Shown: positions 4,638 through 40,683 of the stretch, one piece after another | How positions within the stretch are numbered: position 1 is the stretch's first letter | Layout: each line of letters begins with the position of its first letter | Source: Cryobacterium sinapicolor | GTDB lineage: Bacteria > Actinomycetota > Actinomycetes > Actinomycetales > Microbacteriaceae | DNA: 64,000 nt | NCBI RefSeq assembly: GCF_004403465.1 | Contig: NZ_SOGQ01000086.1 | Coordinates: forward strand, 1-64,000 | Direction of reading: 5' to 3' | Translations under genes and position numbers: made by a program | Notes under the pieces: model-generated | Told to the model about the DNA's origin: nothing | What the model saw: the letters and a program-made list of their open reading frames with translations, nothing else | The model's database searches: none

Positions 4638-5014
4638 AGCCGCGCCGCCAGGGCCTGCGGGTCGGCGACGAGCATGAGTTCACCATCCGTGTCGAGCGAT
4701 CCCGAAACGAACGCACGCCCGTGGCCCGTCGGCAGCGGCCGGATCTCGGCTTCTTCGATGCGTCGTAGCCCGGAAACGCTGTCCACGAGCAGCCCAAACG
4801 TTGTCTCGGCGCTCTCGACGACGAGCACGTGGCTGCCGCCGTCGCCCAGCGCCGACATGACCGTCAAGGGCACGGCGCCAGGCAGAATTCCGACGATATC
4901 GAAGGCGGCACCCGGCAGAGAACGGATGCCGTCACTCGTGCGCACAGCGCGGGTGGACTCCACGGGAAGGCAGTACGCATCCCCGGCAGCCCGGAAACAG
5001 ACCATGGTCATCAT
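4634..5014 (-). CDS. CheW-like coupling protein (second in operon)
   Basis: This 126-residue CheW-domain protein should link the receptor to the kinase. It begins MMTMVCFRAAGDAYCLPVE, typical of a CheW first strand, and contains GILPGAVPLTVMS and FGLLVDSVSGLRRI from the second half of the fold. Its start is the ATG that shares one base with the CheR stop (TGATG), with AGGAG about ten bases upstream inside cheR. The frame is open further upstream, but that is the shadow of CheR. Wsp systems carry two CheW proteins (WspB and WspD). This one sits directly after CheR, as WspD does in Pseudomonas. Confidence 0.85.
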   Translation of the reverse strand: MMTMVCFRAAGDAYCLPVESTRAVRTSDGIRSLPGAAFDIVGILPGAVPLTVMSALGDGGSHVLVVESAETTFGLLVDSVSGLRRIEEAEIRPLPTGHGRAFVSGSLDTDGELMLVADPQALAARL

Positions 5015-6345
5015 CAGCTGAACTCCTGCTGTTTGTCGGGCCGCCAGGCGACGGACTGGCCGGTGGCGGAAGGCACCGCGTCGGAACGCGCGGTCTCGGA
5101 ACGCGCCGCGTCGGGCTGCCGGCCGTCGAGCAGCGCGCGCAGTTCGGCCGCGTCGTAGCCGCCGACGGCGGCGCTGATCTGAGCCGGATCCGACTCGAGC
5201 AGGGCACGGCGGGAGGCCCCGAATGCCCGGTGTGCGGAGGCCTGGTCGCCGACTGCTTCGAGGGCGAGGGCGAGATGCAAGTGGGCAAGCGCGTCGTCCT
5301 GGGCGAGGTACACCCATTTGCGGAAGAGCACGACGGCGGCCTGGTCGTTACGCGCCGCGAGGGCATCCTGCCCGTCCCGCACCAGTCGGGCGATCGCCGC
5401 GGAGTCGTCCGCAACGTCGGCCCCAGACCCGAACCCGGCCCGAGACCCGGTTTCAGGCTCACTCTCAGCGCCAGCCGCCGAGGGCAGCCTCAACACCGAT
5501 CCCGCCGCCACCGACCCGGCGGCCGGCATCGCCGACACCACCGCGGGAATGGCTCCCTCCTCAACCCGCGGCCGGTAGGCATACGCACCGCCGATCCGCA
5601 CGGTTTCGTAGCGGTCACCGATCGACCAGATCGTCTCGGCCGCCCCGAGGAACACCCACGCGGTGGGCAGGGCGTTCGCGATCCGGTCGAGGAAGATCCG
5701 GGCATGCTCGGTGGAGAAGTAGATCAGTACGTTGCGGCAGAACACGACCTGGCTCCCGCGCGCCTGATCGGGGACCGGTGCGATCAGGTTGTGGTGCAGC
5801 GTGCTGACCCGGTCCCGGAGCGACTGGTTGACCTGCCATTCCAGGCCGGCGCGGGTGAGGTGGCGCTTGATGCGTGTGGGTGTGAGGCCACTGATCTCTC
5901 GGTCCGAGTAGCGCGCGGCACTCGTGCGACGCAGCGCCGCGGTCGACACGTCCGTGGCGATCACCGAGCCGTCGATCCCGAGTTCCTCCAACAGCATCAC
6001 CAGGCTGAACGCCTCCTGGCCGTTGGCGCAACCGGCGCTCCAGATCGTGAGCGGCGGGGTCAGCGTGGGCAGGATCTCGCGCATGAGCACGTCGAAATGC
6101 TCGGGGTGACGGAAGAACCCCGTCTCCTGCACGGTGACCCGGTTGAGCAGGGCCTGGCGCAGCGTGGTGCTGGTCGTGAGCGCCTGAATGTACGTCTCGG
6201 CATCCACGGTCAGGCCGGCGGCCTCGTCACGGATGCACCGGCGCAGCCGGGCACGCAGGGTCGGCTCCGGCTTGAGCCCGACCGCGGTGCGGAGGAGTTC
6301 GGCCACCCGGTCCACGATGGTCTCCGACGGGTCGCCGCTGCTCAT
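5014..6345 (-). CDS. CheR methyltransferase with C-terminal TPR-like region (WspC-like)
   Basis: Predicted SAM-dependent methyltransferase that adds methyl groups to receptor glutamates. The CheR N-terminal helical domain is followed by the SAM-binding segment WSAGCANGQEAFSL, the TGFFR motif and the late motif VVFCRNVLIYF. After about residue 270 comes an Ala/Pro/Gly-rich linker and then a helical region (AALARNDQAAVVLFRKW, ALAHLHLALALEAVGD) that reads as one or two TPR repeats. WspC of Pseudomonas has the same CheR-plus-TPR architecture. The ATG at 6345 overlaps the CheB stop as ATGA; a GTG at 6351 is a possible alternative. 443 residues. Confidence 0.9.
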   Translation of the reverse strand: MSSGDPSETIVDRVAELLRTAVGLKPEPTLRARLRRCIRDEAAGLTVDAETYIQALTTSTTLRQALLNRVTVQETGFFRHPEHFDVLMREILPTLTPPLTIWSAGCANGQEAFSLVMLLEELGIDGSVIATDVSTAALRRTSAARYSDREISGLTPTRIKRHLTRAGLEWQVNQSLRDRVSTLHHNLIAPVPDQARGSQVVFCRNVLIYFSTEHARIFLDRIANALPTAWVFLGAAETIWSIGDRYETVRIGGAYAYRPRVEEGAIPAVVSAMPAAGSVAAGSVLRLPSAAGAESEPETGSRAGFGSGADVADDSAAIARLVRDGQDALAARNDQAAVVLFRKWVYLAQDDALAHLHLALALEAVGDQASAHRAFGASRRALLESDPAQISAAVGGYDAAELRALLDGRQPDAARSETARSDAVPSATGQSVAWRPDKQQEFS

Positions 6346-33641: not shown

Positions 33642-33755
33642 GCCGGGTGTGCGTTGCTGTCCGGCCAGGCGCACAGCGGGTACGGGCGGGCCCACGGCGA
33701 GGCCGGCAACGGGTCTGACGAGCATTCCGGCCGTGTCTCCCCGCCCCGTGCGGCT

Positions 33756-33849
33756 AACTCAGGAGAATGCTCCCGCCGGCTACGCGCATCCGCATAGACC
33801 CGCGTATTTCCGGGGGCGAAACGGATGCCCGCGCCGGATCTCCTGAGTT
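33756..33849. repeat. Inverted repeat family B, copy 1
   Basis: The arms AACTCAGGAGA (33756-33766) and TCTCCTGAGTT (33839-33849) enclose an internal inverted pair GCATCCG/CGGATGC. The surrounding 120 bases are repeated almost exactly 192 bases downstream. No open frame is meaningful here. Confidence 0.85.
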
Positions 33850-33947
33850 CGCCACCCCGCAGACGGGCAAACAGGTGGGCAGGCACGCAGTCTGACGTGG
33901 AGCCCCGCCGAGCACTGATCTGCCGAGTCTCCCCGCCCCGTGCGGCT

Positions 33948-34041
33948 AACTCAGGAGAATGCTCCCGCCGGCTACGCGCATCCGCATGGACCCGCGTATT
34001 TCCGGGGGCGAAACGGATGCCCGCGCCGGATCTCCTGAGTT
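33948..34041. repeat. Inverted repeat family B, copy 2
   Basis: Same 94-bp element as copy 1 with the same arms; the flanks also match (about 33926-34048 versus 33734-33856). The only clear internal difference is CATGGAC for CATAGAC. The two copies and the tetranucleotide repeat fill the 600 bases between lacI and the acylphosphatase gene. Confidence 0.85.
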
Positions 34042-34049
34042 CGCCACCG

Positions 34050-34173
34050 CGCAGACGGGCGCGCAGGCGGGCAGACAGACGGGCGGGCAGGCGGGCGGGC
34101 AGGCGGGCAGACAGACGGGCAGGCAGGCGCGCAGAGAGGCAAGCAAGCAAGCAGGCAGGCGGGTGGGCAGGCG
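34050..34173. repeat. Tetranucleotide-type microsatellite (GGCA/GACA/GGCG)
   Basis: Mixed runs of GGCA, GACA, GGCG and AAGC (for example GCAGACAGACGGGCGGGCAG) extend for about 120 bases directly after the second family B element. No gene is seen. Confidence 0.8.
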
Positions 34174-34244: not shown

Positions 34245-34514
34245 ATGGTTCGCAAACAGGCGGTCGTGCGTGGGATGGTGCAGGGAGTGGGGTTCCGCTA
34301 CTACACCCAGGTCGAGGCACGCCGCCTCGGTCTCGCGGGGTTCGTGCGCAACCGGACGGATGGCGCGGTGGACGCGGAGCTGGAGGGCGACGCGGCATCC
34401 GTCTGGGCGATGCTCGCGTGGTTGCAACACGGCCCGCCGTCGGCCCGGGTGGAGGCGGTCGAGGTCACCACTATTCCGCCGATCGGCGAGACCGGGTTCC
34501 AGATCGGCTTCTGA
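34245..34514 (+). CDS. acyP: Acylphosphatase
   Basis: Hydrolyses acyl phosphates such as 1,3-bisphosphoglycerate or carbamoyl phosphate. The 89-residue length and single domain are typical. The signature GMVQGVGFRYYTQVEARRLG holds the phosphate-binding loop and catalytic Arg; the catalytic Asn is in VRNRTDGAVDAELEG. GGAGG sits very close to ATG 34245, so initiation may be weak or leaderless. The gene lies between two blocks of microsatellite DNA. Confidence 0.93.
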   Translation: MVRKQAVVRGMVQGVGFRYYTQVEARRLGLAGFVRNRTDGAVDAELEGDAASVWAMLAWLQHGPPSARVEAVEVTTIPPIGETGFQIGF

Positions 34515-34515
34515 C

Positions 34516-34655
34516 CGACGACGCACGACGCACGACCCACGGCCCACGACCCACGACCCACGACCCACGACCCACGACCCACGACACACGGCCCACGACA
34601 CACGGCCCACGGCCCACGGCCCACGGCCCACGACGCACGACTCACGACTCACGGC
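34516..34655. repeat. Heptamer tandem repeat (CCCACGA)
   Basis: About 20 degenerate copies of a 7-base unit, CCCACGA with variants CCCACGG, GCACGAC and CACACGG, start directly after the acylphosphatase stop codon and run up to the ribosome site of the next gene. Confidence 0.9.
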
Positions 34656-34677: not shown

Positions 34678-35472
34678 ATGTGCGCGCGAGCAGCCGATCC
34701 CGCTCGGACGGAAAGAACGAAGCGCGTCCTCGCGCCGGCGACGGATCCGGGCATGCGCGCACTCCCTGCGGCTGCCACCCATCCGGCCCTGGTCGCCCGA
34801 GCCCCCCGGACCTTCCCCGTGCACACGGTGCGCCGCGGGTTCGGCATCGGCCGCCTGCTGCTCGCGTTCCTGGGCGTCGTGGCCCTGGCCGGCTACTTCG
34901 ACTACGTGCTCGGTTTCGCCACCTTCCAGATCGCCAACTACTTCAGCTATTTCACCGTGCTGAGCGGCATGGCCGCGGTCGTCGCCTTCGTCGTTGCCGC
35001 GATCGTCGCCTTCCGGCACGCGACCGACCCACCGTGGCTGGACTGGTTCCGGCTGTTGGTCACGACCTACATCACCGTCTCGGGGATCGTGTTCCTGACC
35101 ATCGTCATCCAGTCCTCAACCCGCGATTACACGATCGAGGTGCCCTGGTCGAGCCAGTTGTTGCACTTCTGGATTCCCGCGATCGCGCTGCTCGACTGGC
35201 TGACGGATGCCGGCAAGGCCCGGCTGCCCTGGAAAATTTTGGCCTGGATTCTCGTGGTGCCCTCGATCTGGGGAGTGTTCACGCTTATCCGCGGGTCGGT
35301 CGTGGGCTGGTACCCGTACTTCTTCCTGGACCCGGTGCAGGTGCGCGGACCGCTCGAGACCGCGGTCTACTGCCTGGCGGCTCTGCTGCTCTTCACCGCG
35401 ATCGCAGCCGTACTCACGGCCACGTCGCGGCTGCCCCAGCCGGCATTGCGGCGCGAGCCTATAGCGGCGTGA
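34678..35472 (+). CDS. Pr6Pr-type polytopic membrane protein
   Basis: A 264-residue membrane protein with a 50-residue basic N-terminus and about six helices: LLLAFLGVVALAGYFDYVLG, YFTVLSGMAAVVAFVVAAIV, YITVSGIVFLTIVIQSS, LLHFWIPAIALLDWL, ILAWILVVPSIWGVF and TAVYCLAALLLFTAIAAVL. The patterns NYFSYFTVLS, HFWIPAIALLDWL and WYPYFFLDP match the Pr6Pr/FAR-17a-like family of unknown function in actinobacteria. GGAAGC precedes ATG 34678. Its last 14 bases overlap the convergent Cys-rich gene. Confidence 0.82.
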   Translation: MCARAADPARTERTKRVLAPATDPGMRALPAAATHPALVARAPRTFPVHTVRRGFGIGRLLLAFLGVVALAGYFDYVLGFATFQIANYFSYFTVLSGMAAVVAFVVAAIVAFRHATDPPWLDWFRLLVTTYITVSGIVFLTIVIQSSTRDYTIEVPWSSQLLHFWIPAIALLDWLTDAGKARLPWKILAWILVVPSIWGVFTLIRGSVVGWYPYFFLDPVQVRGPLETAVYCLAALLLFTAIAAVLTATSRLPQPALRREPIAA

Positions 35473-36093: not shown

Positions 36094-37542
36094 TTACTCC
36101 GGGGCCGGCGTGGCCGTCGGCACGGTCGAGTTGAACGGCTCGAGGCTGCTCAGGGCGGCGGCCAGGAACTCGTCGTCGTCGACCTCGGCGAGGCGCAGAG
36201 CGGTCTCCGCGGCAACCAGGCCCACCAGAACCGGTTCGCCGGTGATCGGAACCATGTTGATCCAGACGCGGAAGTCGTCGTCGCCGCCGACCGTGGCCCA
36301 GAGCGGCGCATCCGTGTCCCAGAACGGCTCGTCGAACTGGAGCCAGATCTTGTCGAGCGCGCCCATGCCGAGGGCGGAGATGGCGCCGCGGTGCGTGAAG
36401 GGCAGCGGTGGGTCGAACTCCATCACCTTGGTCTTCAGCACCCCCAACGGCACGGTGACGATGACCCGGTCGGCGGACAGGGACTCGCCGTTGCCGAGGC
36501 GGAGGCTCGCGCCGGCGTCGCTGTAGGCGATCCTGGTGACCACGCTGGACCCGAGCACGTCGATGCCCTCGCTGAGGTCGGTGAGCAGGGTGGCGAAGCC
36601 GCCCAGCACGATGCGGTCCTCGCCGGGGTCGGCGTCAGGGTCGGCCTGGGCGTCTGCTTCCGAGTACCAGGAGGACTGCTCGGCGACGGGGGCACCGCAC
36701 TTCGGGTCGAGCACCACGGTGATCTGGTAATCGAGCCAGTCGGCGTCGGAAACGCCGGTGTCGGCATCCGTCGTCGAAAGCTTGGACGCACCCGAGTCGG
36801 CGAGGGCCTGCGCGATGGACACGTCGGCGGGCTGGTCGGCGGCCCAGGCCAGCGCCGTGCCGACCGCCTGCGAGCCGGTGCCGGGCACCTGCAGAACCGT
36901 GCCGGCAGTCGTGCGAACCTCGGGCACAGCGGTGAAGGGGGCCGTGGCGACCCCGCGGTCGGTGAGGTCCTCGTCGAGGGTGGTCTGCCCGGTGCGCCAG
37001 ACGAACGACGCGCCGAGCTCGATCGGGAACGGCCAGTCCTTGTCGGTGACGGTGTCGATGCGGCCGCCGATGCGGTCGCGGGCCTCGACCAGGACCACGT
37101 CGTAGCCGGCGTCTGCCAGGTCGCGGGCCGCCGCGAGCCCGGCGATTCCGGCACCGATCACGGCGATGCGCTCCCCCGGATTCGCGGCGGCGAGCACGTC
37201 ACGGGCGGCGCGCTCCCCGGAGTCGCGGGCGCCCTGCACCGTGCCGAATGCGTCTGTGGACGTGGCCTCCCCGGCGAAGAACAGGCGGTCGTCGACGGGC
37301 TCGCTGAGCGCGGCGCGCTGCTCGGGCGTGGCGCCGACCGCAGGAAAGCTGAAGGATCCGCGGGCGAACGGGTCGGCCGACCAGGACGTGCGGCGCATGG
37401 CCGCCGGCTTCGGCACGAGCGAGGTCGTCGTCGGTGTGGGCGTGACGGATGCCGTGGGCCGCGGCGTCGGCGCCACGCACGCGGTGAGCGCGACCAGGCT
37501 CAGGCCGGAGACCGAGCCGATCAGAAAGGTTCGTCGTTTCAT
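36094..37542 (-). CDS. Exported flavin amine oxidase, apparently circularly permuted
   Basis: A 482-residue FAD-dependent oxidase of the monoamine/polyamine oxidase family. The N-terminus MKRRTFLIGSVSGLSLVALTAC combines a twin-arginine motif and a lipobox (Cys22), so it is probably a Tat-exported lipoprotein. Residues about 50-118 read WSADPFARGSFSF, then LFFAGEATSTDAFGTVQGA, SGERAA: this is the segment that normally closes the FAD site at the C-terminus of the family. Only after it comes the dinucleotide motif IAVIGAGIAGLAAARDL (about 126-142) and RIGGR, normally N-terminal. The protein then ends where the usual C-terminal segment would begin (EFLAAALSSLEPF). All parts are present but in rotated order. 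Confidence 0.88.
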   Translation of the reverse strand: MKRRTFLIGSVSGLSLVALTACVAPTPRPTASVTPTPTTTSLVPKPAAMRRTSWSADPFARGSFSFPAVGATPEQRAALSEPVDDRLFFAGEATSTDAFGTVQGARDSGERAARDVLAAANPGERIAVIGAGIAGLAAARDLADAGYDVVLVEARDRIGGRIDTVTDKDWPFPIELGASFVWRTGQTTLDEDLTDRGVATAPFTAVPEVRTTAGTVLQVPGTGSQAVGTALAWAADQPADVSIAQALADSGASKLSTTDADTGVSDADWLDYQITVVLDPKCGAPVAEQSSWYSEADAQADPDADPGEDRIVLGGFATLLTDLSEGIDVLGSSVVTRIAYSDAGASLRLGNGESLSADRVIVTVPLGVLKTKVMEFDPPLPFTHRGAISALGMGALDKIWLQFDEPFWDTDAPLWATVGGDDDFRVWINMVPITGEPVLVGLVAAETALRLAEVDDDEFLAAALSSLEPFNSTVPTATPAPE

Positions 37543-37691
37543 TGCTGTGTCCGCGCCACGGGTGGCGCCGGCGTACTCCTTTCCGAGCGGGGCCGGGCAG
37601 TACGACCAAGTTACCTCAGCGGAGGGTGAAGTGGCTGGTCGGGGCAGGGGCGCGAGGGGCGAGGGGCGCGCGTGGGGCGGAGGGGGCGCGC

Positions 37692-37871: not shown

Positions 37872-39734
37872 TCAGTCGAGCGGATGCTGCAGGAAGCCAT
37901 CGTCGAGCAGCTCCCGCACGCGCGGGAGCAGGTCCGCGGCGAGCTCGCCCTCGTCGACGGTGAGCAGCTGGGCCAGCGCGGCGACGATCGAGCCCACGTC
38001 GAGCTCACCGTCGCAGGCTCCGACCAGCGCGGCGAGGCCGGTGTCCAGCGCGATCGAACGGCCGAAGCCGCTGCCCTGGTGCAGCGTCATCAGGGTGGGG
38101 TCCTCCAGGCCGGGCCAGTAGTGCCGTTCCTCAGTGACATCGGATGCGGCGGCGAGCCGCGCGCGGGCGAGGCGGGCGTCATCCGTCGCCGCGTGCCAGT
38201 CGTGGGCGGCGAGGCAGGCGGCGAGGTGGCTGCCCATGCCCCCCGGATTGTGGCCGAGGGCTCCGGGGATGCGTTCGAGGCGGCGAAGGGTCGGGGTGCC
38301 GGCGGCCGGGCGGCGCAGCAGCATGTAGCCGAAGCCGACCTGGCTCACGCCGCGCGCCTCGAAGTCGTCGAGCCAGGCGCCGTAGAGGCGCTCAAAGTCG
38401 GCCGTGTCGGCGCGGGTGCCGCCGTCGCGGATCCACGTTTCGGCGTAGAGCGTGGGGGCCTGCACCTCACGTTCGATGATCCAGGCGTCGAGTGCCGCGT
38501 CATCCGTGGCCTCTGCAGCCGAGGCAGCCGCGAGCTCGACCCCGACCCCGGCCCCGGCTTCGGCCCCGACTTCGGCTTCGACCCCAGCCCCGACTTCGGC
38601 TTCGGCCCCAGCCCCGGCTGCGAACGAATTCGACGGAGATTTTGCTCCCAGAGGGGGCGTCGGAGTCGAATTCGGGGTGTTTCGGGCAAAATCTCCGTCG
38701 AATTCGTCAGGGCTCACGGGGGCGGAAGCGGGGACAGAAGTCGGGACGGAAGCCGGGGCAGAAGTCGGGACGGAAGCCGGCGCAGAAGCCGGGACAGAAG
38801 CCGGGACGTCGAGCCAGCCGGTCAGGCGCTCGAAGGCGTCCTGCCCGGCGTGGTACTCCCAGTTGCCCAGCAGCTGGGCGATGCCGCCGGGGGTCAGATG
38901 GCCGGCCGCACCGCGCACCACCGCCTCGACCAGGGCATCGCCGACCAGGCCGCCGTCGCGATACTCGTAGGCGGGCACACCCGGCACCCGCGGGGTGATC
39001 ACGAACGGCGGGTTGGAGATGATGTGGTCGAAACGCTCCCCCACGACGGGTTCGAACAGGCTGCCGAGGCGGAACTCGATGTTGTCGATCTCGTTCAGCT
39101 CGGCGTTCACCGCGGCGAGCTCGAGCGCCCGCGCAGAGATATCCGTGGCGATCACCCGGTCGGCATGCCGGGACGCGTGCATCGCCTGGATGCCGCAGCC
39201 GGTTCCCAGATCGAGGGCGCTGGCCACCGGCGTCGGGATCAGCAGCCCGCTCAGGGTGAGGGATGCCCCGCCCACGCCGAGCACATGGCTTTCGCCGAGC
39301 GGGTGGCCGAGTGCGAGTTCGCCCAGGTCGGACAGGATCCACCAGCTTCCCGCGCCGTGAGCGTCGACGAAGCTGTAGGGCCGCAGTTCGAGCAGCGGGC
39401 GGACGGCGCCGCCCTGATCGGGTTCAGGGAAGGCGACGACGGATGCGGCGAGGCCGAGCTCCTCGGCCCCGGCGGCGCCCAGTGCGGGGAGGGCGGCATC
39501 GAGATCCGCACGGTCAACGGGCAGGCCGAGCACGAACAGTCGGGCCAGCGTAATGCAGGGCTCGGTGTGCCCGAGCCTCTCCCGGAGACCGTCGAGCGCA
39601 CGCAGCGCCGGGACCCGCTGGTTGCGGCGCAGCGCGGCATCCGCTTCGCTCCCCCACAGCCCGGTGAGGGCCGAAACCGAAAAGTTGGCGGTGGCGAGGT
39701 CGGAGCGAAGCCGGGCGATCAGGGCAGAAGTCAC
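37872..39734 (-). CDS. Class I SAM-dependent methyltransferase with large repeat-derived insertion
   Basis: A 620-residue methyltransferase of the RlmG/HemK-like group. SAM binding is by DLGTGCGIQAMHASRHA (175-190) and ATDISARALELA; the catalytic NPPF is at 241-244 (IISNPPFVITP), typical of enzymes that methylate amino groups of rRNA bases or glutamine. Residues about 311-410 are low complexity: PASVPASAPASVPTS repeats, then DEFDGDFARNTPNS encoded by a family A inverted repeat, then AEAEVGAGVEAEVG repeats. After them the fold resumes (DAWIIEREVQAPTLYAETWI). The start is probably GTG 39734; the upstream open frame is only a 12-bp tandem repeat. The target is unknown. Confidence 0.82.
   Translation of the reverse strand: MTSALIARLRSDLATANFSVSALTGLWGSEADAALRRNQRVPALRALDGLRERLGHTEPCITLARLFVLGLPVDRADLDAALPALGAAGAEELGLAASVVAFPEPDQGGAVRPLLELRPYSFVDAHGAGSWWILSDLGELALGHPLGESHVLGVGGASLTLSGLLIPTPVASALDLGTGCGIQAMHASRHADRVIATDISARALELAAVNAELNEIDNIEFRLGSLFEPVVGERFDHIISNPPFVITPRVPGVPAYEYRDGGLVGDALVEAVVRGAAGHLTPGGIAQLLGNWEYHAGQDAFERLTGWLDVPASVPASAPASVPTSAPASVPTSVPASAPVSPDEFDGDFARNTPNSTPTPPLGAKSPSNSFAAGAGAEAEVGAGVEAEVGAEAGAGVGVELAAASAAEATDDAALDAWIIEREVQAPTLYAETWIRDGGTRADTADFERLYGAWLDDFEARGVSQVGFGYMLLRRPAAGTPTLRRLERIPGALGHNPGGMGSHLAACLAAHDWHAATDDARLARARLAAASDVTEERHYWPGLEDPTLMTLHQGSGFGRSIALDTGLAALVGACDGELDVGSIVAALAQLLTVDEGELAADLLPRVRELLDDGFLQHPLD
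38624..38707. repeat. Inverted repeat family A inside a coding sequence
   Basis: Perfect 22-bp arms with core AATTCGACGGAGATTTTG (38624-38645 and 38686-38707) around 40 bases. The arm core is the same as at 2677-2753. The element is 84 bp (28 codons) and lies in frame inside the methyltransferase gene, coding for DEFDGDFARNTPNS and following residues. It is flanked on both sides by other repeats. Confidence 0.92.
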
Positions 39735-39748
39735 CCGTCTATTCAACT

Positions 39749-39798
39749 GCACCGGCCGCTGCACCGGCCGCCGCACCGGCCGCCGCACCGGCCGCCGG
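39749..39798. repeat. 12-bp tandem repeat (GCACCGGCCGCC)
   Basis: About four units of GCACCGGCCGCC occupy nearly all of the 67-bp gap between the SDR stop and the methyltransferase start. Confidence 0.88.
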
Positions 39799-39801
39799 CC
39801 C

Positions 39802-40683
39802 CTACCGGCGCTCCTCGGCCACACTGTTGCCGCCGTCGACGACGATGGTCTGACCGGTGACGTAGGACGCGCCCGGCGAGGCCAGCCAGGCGATCACGGA
39901 TGCCACTTCCGCAGCGGTCCCGCTGCGCCCGACCGGCACGAGCGCGCCCTCGACCACCTCGCTCTCCAGCTGTGACCCGGTCTCGATCCAGCCCGGCGCG
40001 ACCGCGTTGGCGGTGATGCCGAGCCAGGCCTCATCCACGGCGAGCGCTCGGGTGAGCCCGGCCAGACCGGCCTTCGCGGCCGCATAGGTCAGGTCCCCGC
40101 GCGACGCCATCACCGGCCCCGAGACGCTCGACACCGTGACGATGCGCCCCCACGTCGCCGCGTGCATGAAGCCGATCACGGTGCGGGTGGCGTGGAACGC
40201 GGTCGACAGGTTGATTGCGAGGCCACGGTCCCACTCCTCCGGCGACGTGGTGCTCACGTCGCCGTGCAGCATCTCGGGGTCGCCGACCGCGACCATGCCC
40301 GCGTTGTTCACCAGAATCGTCGGGGCCAGGCCCGCGTCGGCGAGGGCGTCGGCGAGCACCAGGGCGCCGGCCTCGGTGTCGAGGGTGCAGACGATTCCGG
40401 ATGCCGCGATGCCCAGTTCCGTCAGCTCGGCCGCGCGCTCGTGCACGCGTTCGGTCGTGGCGGTGAGCACGACGTCCGCACCGAGCTCACCCAGCATCCG
40501 TGCCGCGGCGAAACCGATCCCGGAGGCGCTGCCGGCCCCGGTGACCAAGGCGGTGCGGCCGGCGAGATTCCACGCGAGGGGCAGGGCGAAAGCGACAGGC
40601 ACGGGGAGACCGGCAGAACCCGGGAGCCCGACGGAATCGGGGGCACCGACAACCGGGGCACCGACAACCTCAGGCAACGTCAT
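39802..40683 (-). CDS. Short-chain dehydrogenase/reductase
   Basis: A 293-residue classical SDR. The cofactor loop is TGAGSASGIG (about 48-57), then NNAGMV, the catalytic Ser in VTVSSVSG and Tyr-Lys in YAAAKAG, followed by NAVAPGWIETG and TGQTIVVDGG. A 38-residue N-terminal extension of near-repeats (VVGAPDSVGLPGSAGLPVPV) precedes the fold and may be repeat-derived. Its gene starts 16 bases after the lacI stop and is probably co-transcribed with it. The substrate is unknown; a sugar or polyol is a fair guess from context. Confidence 0.9.
   Translation of the reverse strand: MTLPEVVGAPVVGAPDSVGLPGSAGLPVPVAFALPLAWNLAGRTALVTGAGSASGIGFAAARMLGELGADVVLTATTERVHERAAELTELGIAASGIVCTLDTEAGALVLADALADAGLAPTILVNNAGMVAVGDPEMLHGDVSTTSPEEWDRGLAINLSTAFHATRTVIGFMHAATWGRIVTVSSVSGPVMASRGDLTYAAAKAGLAGLTRALAVDEAWLGITANAVAPGWIETGSQLESEVVEGALVPVGRSGTAAEVASVIAWLASPGASYVTGQTIVVDGGNSVAEERR

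Follow-up and report, generated by a model that had tools for sequence, protein, structure and literature searches.

A putative circularly permuted flavin amine oxidase of Cryobacterium with a twin-arginine lipoprotein signal and a Pr6Pr membrane protein as neighbour

The stretch of DNA considered here, the window, comprises 64,000 nucleotides of a Cryobacterium sinapicolor contig (NZ_SOGQ01000086.1). On its minus strand, at 36094..37542, an open reading frame (ORF) encodes a flavin amine-oxidase-like lipoprotein of 482 residues, in which, judging from its sequence, we almost certainly see a natural circular permutant of the fold known from polyamine oxidases (PAO) and LSD1. This oxidase is also, with high probability, exported. 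A permuted oxidase that leaves the cytoplasm by the twin-arginine (Tat) route and works with the adjacent Pr6Pr membrane protein is probably the best explanation of the locus as a whole. The protein is a permuted variant within the already known amine-oxidase superfamily; what is new is its adjacency to Pr6Pr in Microbacteriaceae.

A rotated order of the amine-oxidase fold

Proteins of the PF01593 (Amino_oxidase) family typically begin with the dinucleotide motif and end with the segment that closes the flavin adenine dinucleotide (FAD) site. In the oxidase this order is reversed: WSADPFARGSFSF, from residue 54, and LFFAGEATSTDAFGTVQGA, which runs to residue 105, both precede GAGIAGL at 130-136. 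PF01593 matches the protein in three stretches (E 2.7e-63, 215.3 bits against a curated cut-off of 19.8), and it also matches 50/50 members of alignment A3 at E <= 1e-5. A phmmer comparison with LSD2 returns three blocks in rotated order, in which residues 124-162 fall on 337-375, 306-468 on 523-692, and 43-117 on 700-774.

The permutation is mapped most directly by a canonical hidden Markov model (HMM) of 420 columns, built solely from relatives with the canonical order. Residues 43-117 (37192..37416, minus strand; including W54, F64, GEAT 91-94 and T101) correspond to columns 345-419 with 99.2 bits and thus to the C-terminal segment of canonical relatives. Residues 126-476 (36115..37167), the Rossmann and substrate parts that are N-terminal in those relatives, cover columns 2-347 with 243.9 bits. 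Between them lie the 8 residues 118-125 (37168..37191), the junction of the old C and N termini. The original prediction had placed the moved segment ahead of the dinucleotide motif and had described the complete fold as present in rotated order, and both points are borne out. Since the two blocks are complementary on the model and overlap by 3 columns, the fold is complete, with nothing large doubled or missing, and rotation in silico turns them into a single match to columns 2-419 (347.3 bits). The whole-protein scores are nearly equal (339.0 bits native, 347.6 rotated) because the native score adds up the two pieces; the difference lies in their order.

The same pattern holds in 103 permuted loci, which represent 94 distinct sequences and thereby answer the search for homologues of the same order. 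Their longest collinear span has a median of 338 columns in the native and 418 in the rotated form, compared with 419 in 86 canonical ORFs; a locus with split frames (L105) and 7 ORFs left unplaced by the sorting script do not enter these counts. Across 20 rows tabulated by clade the cut point is nearly constant: the lead segment starts at columns 338-350, the last match ends at columns 337-349, and the linker has 5-13 residues. In seven loci (L068, L069, L071, L072, L073, L075 and L076) the match to the permuted HMM is split in two by an insertion around columns 409-433.

Structure prediction, which had been suggested as a check, gave a confident AlphaFold2 model (predicted local distance difference test, pLDDT, 94.2; predicted template modelling score, pTM, 0.90) whose nearest structures are LSD1 and LSD2. 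Together with the HMM mapping and the recurrence of the rotated order, it speaks for the permutation, and it is consistent with the moved segment 43-117 having kept its old place in three dimensions. The assignment to the flavin amine-oxidase fold is supported, with LSD1/LSD2 and polyamine oxidases, not monoamine oxidases, as the closest solved structures. The amine-oxidase domain of LSD1/LSD2 (KDM1A/KDM1B) is the best match in both sequence and structure and shares the lysine column of K398. Unlike the permuted oxidase, LSD1 and LSD2 have canonical order, are nuclear and contain extra domains. The plant polyamine oxidase (1b37) and other PF01593 enzymes have the family and fold in common with the oxidase, but are canonical, whereas the window protein is permuted and carries a Tat lipoprotein signal.

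Could the leading segment of one chain instead complete the FAD site of another? We regard such a domain-swapped dimer as very unlikely. The short junction would favour it, and nothing in the analysis shows that the oxidase is a monomer; the confident monomer model argues against it, although a prediction made on a single chain may return a swapped segment to its own fold.

Distribution across genomes

The permuted oxidase is found in 36/36 other sampled Cryobacterium genomes, with best E values no higher than 6.4e-139. The match is broken in two in G021 and its stretch contains one TAG in G003, while the C. cheniae protein (L099) is 88% identical to that of the window and has the same neighbours. 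Within Microbacteriaceae 79/249 genomes match at 1e-40; once the canonical protein of G270 is taken out, 78 are permuted by collinear match. That an assembly, frame or annotation error created the order has a negligible chance. The genome of the window is indeed a draft of 96 contigs, but the recurrence of the order in 94 distinct sequences, some of them from single-contig genomes (among these G022, G023 and G030), and its presence throughout the genus and in the family genomes refute this explanation, the one named as a possible refutation in the original prediction.

Outside the family, an order-level sample of 396 genomes (E <= 1e-50, 4 candidates scored per genome) gave the permuted order in G473 and G396, with no signal by eye, and a phylum-level sample of 396 gave it in G750, G846, G975 and G801, all from other classes. 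Among the matches listed (80 of 344 relatives), a named scan adds Candidatus Microthrix, Acidimicrobiaceae, Naasia, Leifsonia, Microbacterium, Pseudomonas citronellolis and proteobacterial metagenome-assembled genomes (MAGs). In Pseudomonadota the protein is rare, with 4/299 genomes at E <= 1e-20 including the source genome of the query; three of these matches are full-length, and for the fourth, L190, the ORF shows the permuted order. By eye, L190 and L111 have a twin-arginine signal without a lipobox. In a Rhodobacteraceae MAG (L105, 6040-7118) the permuted coding sequence is split over two frames. Spread by plasmids was considered and rejected: P0002 and the L112 protein were compared by tblastn with 72,556 plasmid records, and each matched a single Haloarcula record, with coverage below 80% in both cases.

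Export signal and start of the gene

The N terminus, MKRRTFLIGSVSGLSLVALTAC, reads as a twin-arginine signal with a lipobox at its end, followed by a Pro/Thr-rich stretch. Residues 1-22 (37477..37542, minus strand; MKRRTFLIG...LTAC) would form the Tat signal peptide up to the lipobox cysteine C22, and residues 23-42 (37417..37476) a tether, which coincides with the low-confidence start of the AlphaFold2 model. The proposed twin-arginine lipoprotein signal holds up across relatives: RR.F is found in 54/55 loci examined (L016 has TRRTLL), the lipobox in 55/55, and R3, R4 and C22 are unchanged across 29 rows of alignment A1. A longer ORF is possible from a GTG upstream, but we prefer the ATG at 37542 because the signal starts there and relatives align from there. 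By eye there is no Shine-Dalgarno-like motif near this ATG (37537-37610); an AGGAG ends 33 nt upstream.

The Pr6Pr membrane protein

Convergent to the oxidase gene, at 34678..35472 on the plus strand, lies a gene for a six-helix membrane protein of the Pr6Pr family (NF038065, E 2.5e-32). In Microbacteriaceae Pr6Pr lies within 1.04 kb of the oxidase in 75/75 pairs on the same contig. It is the sole neighbour common to the window and five loci of Microbacteriaceae outside Cryobacterium (L101, L103, L106, L107 and L109; 6 kb flanks, antisense shadows of the oxidase aside). In L103 it is inverted and still adjoins the oxidase, and within 8 genera both genes are jointly present or jointly absent. 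We consider it probable that the two form a functional pair, and the link offers a first handle on the Pr6Pr family, which went unnamed in the full-text literature searched, most subscription journals lying outside it.

What might Pr6Pr do? A resemblance to acyl enzymes of the TMEM164 and AIG1/ADTRP type is a lead only, and Pr6Pr may turn out to be a bacterial side of these enzymes. In a search of the own genome at E <= 1, PF04750 (AIG1) did not match the Pr6Pr of the window; two paralogues from the same genome match below the cut-off (22.3 and 14.5 bits versus 24.5). PF04750 is likewise absent among the best 25 of 35 Pfam families for the Pr6Pr alignment A4, whose matches are weak and scattered. 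Against PDB sequences the alignment matches one unrelated chain (E 1.9) and a paralogue none. The DNA just before the gene is repetitive, with a 156-nt direct repeat in two copies (33730-34077, 95%), a GCAGGCGGGCAG-like array (34051-34172) and 20 copies of the 7-nt GACCCAC (34513-34653).

Active site and likely chemistry

The window protein has both the amine-oxidase lysine, K398 (codon 36349..36351, minus strand), whose column we take to be that of LSD1 K661, and the aromatic F64; S63, F64 and T101 presumably have equivalents in LSD1 and MAO-B. The lysine is found in 81/86 canonical relatives, and 84/86 carry an aromatic residue at the cage column. In the main Microbacteriaceae clade the lysine is present in 39/77 distinct sequences, among them 32/32 from Cryobacterium (same-genus loci and three named records), and the aromatic column is F or Y in 31/32 Cryobacterium versus 14/45 other sequences. 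Because lysine and aromatic residue are retained in Cryobacterium, amine oxidation with release of H2O2 would be the likeliest chemistry there, with a chance we put slightly below even.

E92, E153, R161 and G177 are flavin-site residues by role, and they are invariant in 94/94 distinct permuted sequences. The ratio of nonsynonymous to synonymous substitution rates (dN/dS) is 0.10-0.30 in seven oxidase pairs, 5 of them without the lysine. By these values and the loss of lysine and aromatic residue, selection is preserving the fold while the amine-oxidase signature decays outside Cryobacterium; flavin chemistry is probably altered in most other genera sampled. W427 (36262-36264) is tryptophan in 94/94 distinct permuted sequences versus 40/86 canonical ones.

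Some observations weigh against an active oxidase that acts together with Pr6Pr. Outside Cryobacterium just 7/45 main-clade sequences have the lysine, and with its loss in 38/45 amine oxidation is not assured; the two genes are convergent, without a shared promoter; and in other permuted clades Pr6Pr is not beside the oxidase. The lysine loss, set beside the invariant flavin-site residues and purifying selection, would suit a protein that kept the FAD fold but lost oxidase activity, serving Pr6Pr as a subunit for structure, sensing or electron transport. We see this as possible but unlikely, given the lysine and aromatic residue in Cryobacterium and the lysine in canonical relatives. The gene arrangement, and the inflation of adjacency counts by genome relatedness, would fit inherited synteny without a functional link. 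This we hold to be quite improbable, as Pr6Pr is the sole common neighbour, stays adjacent when flipped in L103 and shows joint presence and absence. Among 12 loci of the other permuted clades only the oxidase recurs in the neighbourhood, bar one weak match between L112 and L125; this is a weak negative, because the crude ORF rule based on GC content at third codon positions (GC3) missed the oxidase of L112 and gave 3 ORFs in L110.

A possible mechanism

For the permuted, exported oxidase working with Pr6Pr we envisage that the chain would fold around FAD in the cytoplasm, its leading segment covering the FAD site from the usual position of the C terminus. Tat would then export the folded protein, which would receive a lipid at C22 and stay anchored to the membrane's outer face. 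There it may, together with Pr6Pr, oxidise a substrate reached from the membrane; Pr6Pr itself would probably hydrolyse or transfer acyl chains, as an enzyme of the AIG1/TMEM164 kind. We only tentatively suggest a lipid-linked substrate. A bolder and rather unlikely proposal is that the permutation carried the lipid anchor away from the edge that binds FAD and over to the opposite side of the enzyme, so that the active site would face the membrane, enabling a two-protein lipid-modifying system of flavin oxidase and AIG1/TMEM164-like acyl enzyme on the outer face. We know of no pair that resembles it.

Origin of the permutation

Trees were built with the pieces set in canonical order. In the second, with 67 of 124 rows, the Microbacteriaceae proteins, their sister group L086-L088 and L104/L115 form one clade (99/95), a signal-less clade of L077, L112, L122 and L125 stands apart (100/99), and L089, L108/L110, L111 and L190 lack a firm placement. 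This tree needs four order changes, and a single change is enough in 0% of 200 bootstrap trees; the quicker 124-row tree needs six and groups L104/L115 with L108/L110 instead. Forcing the 25 permuted rows into one clade is not rejected by the approximately unbiased (AU) test (p-AU 0.134), nor is forcing the 21 that exclude the signal-less clade (p-AU 0.129). The common cut point fits a single origin, and it may also mark a spot where the fold tolerates a break. For the engineering of flavin amine-oxidase enzymes it supplies a site where a cut is tolerated in nature.

The bacterial relatives L079, L091, L094 and L117 share the fold and, by eye, the Tat-lipoprotein-like signal, but differ in their canonical order, in which the signal leads straight into the GxGxxG strand. 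Export may therefore be older than the permutation. In L117, a Microbacterium MAG, the canonical-order gene (4777-6237) has a weak Pr6Pr-like match on either side (E 7e-7 and 3e-4) and may show what such a locus looked like before the permutation.

Known permuted flavoproteins

To our knowledge, large two-domain flavoenzymes have rarely undergone circular permutation in nature. The original prediction knew of no well-described permuted member of the family, and in the full-text literature, most subscription journals being outside the search, we likewise found no description of a permuted flavin or amine oxidase. LucY (PMC4408115), a circularly permuted flavoprotein, was set aside: it is a MurB and thus of a different family, and its permutation, described in connection with alternative termini for fusions, is taken as engineered.

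Neighbouring gene

Upstream of the oxidase, on the same strand at 37872-39824, lies a methyltransferase-like gene (DUF7059/DUF7782) with internal low-complexity stretches of SVPASAP and GAEVGAGVEAE.
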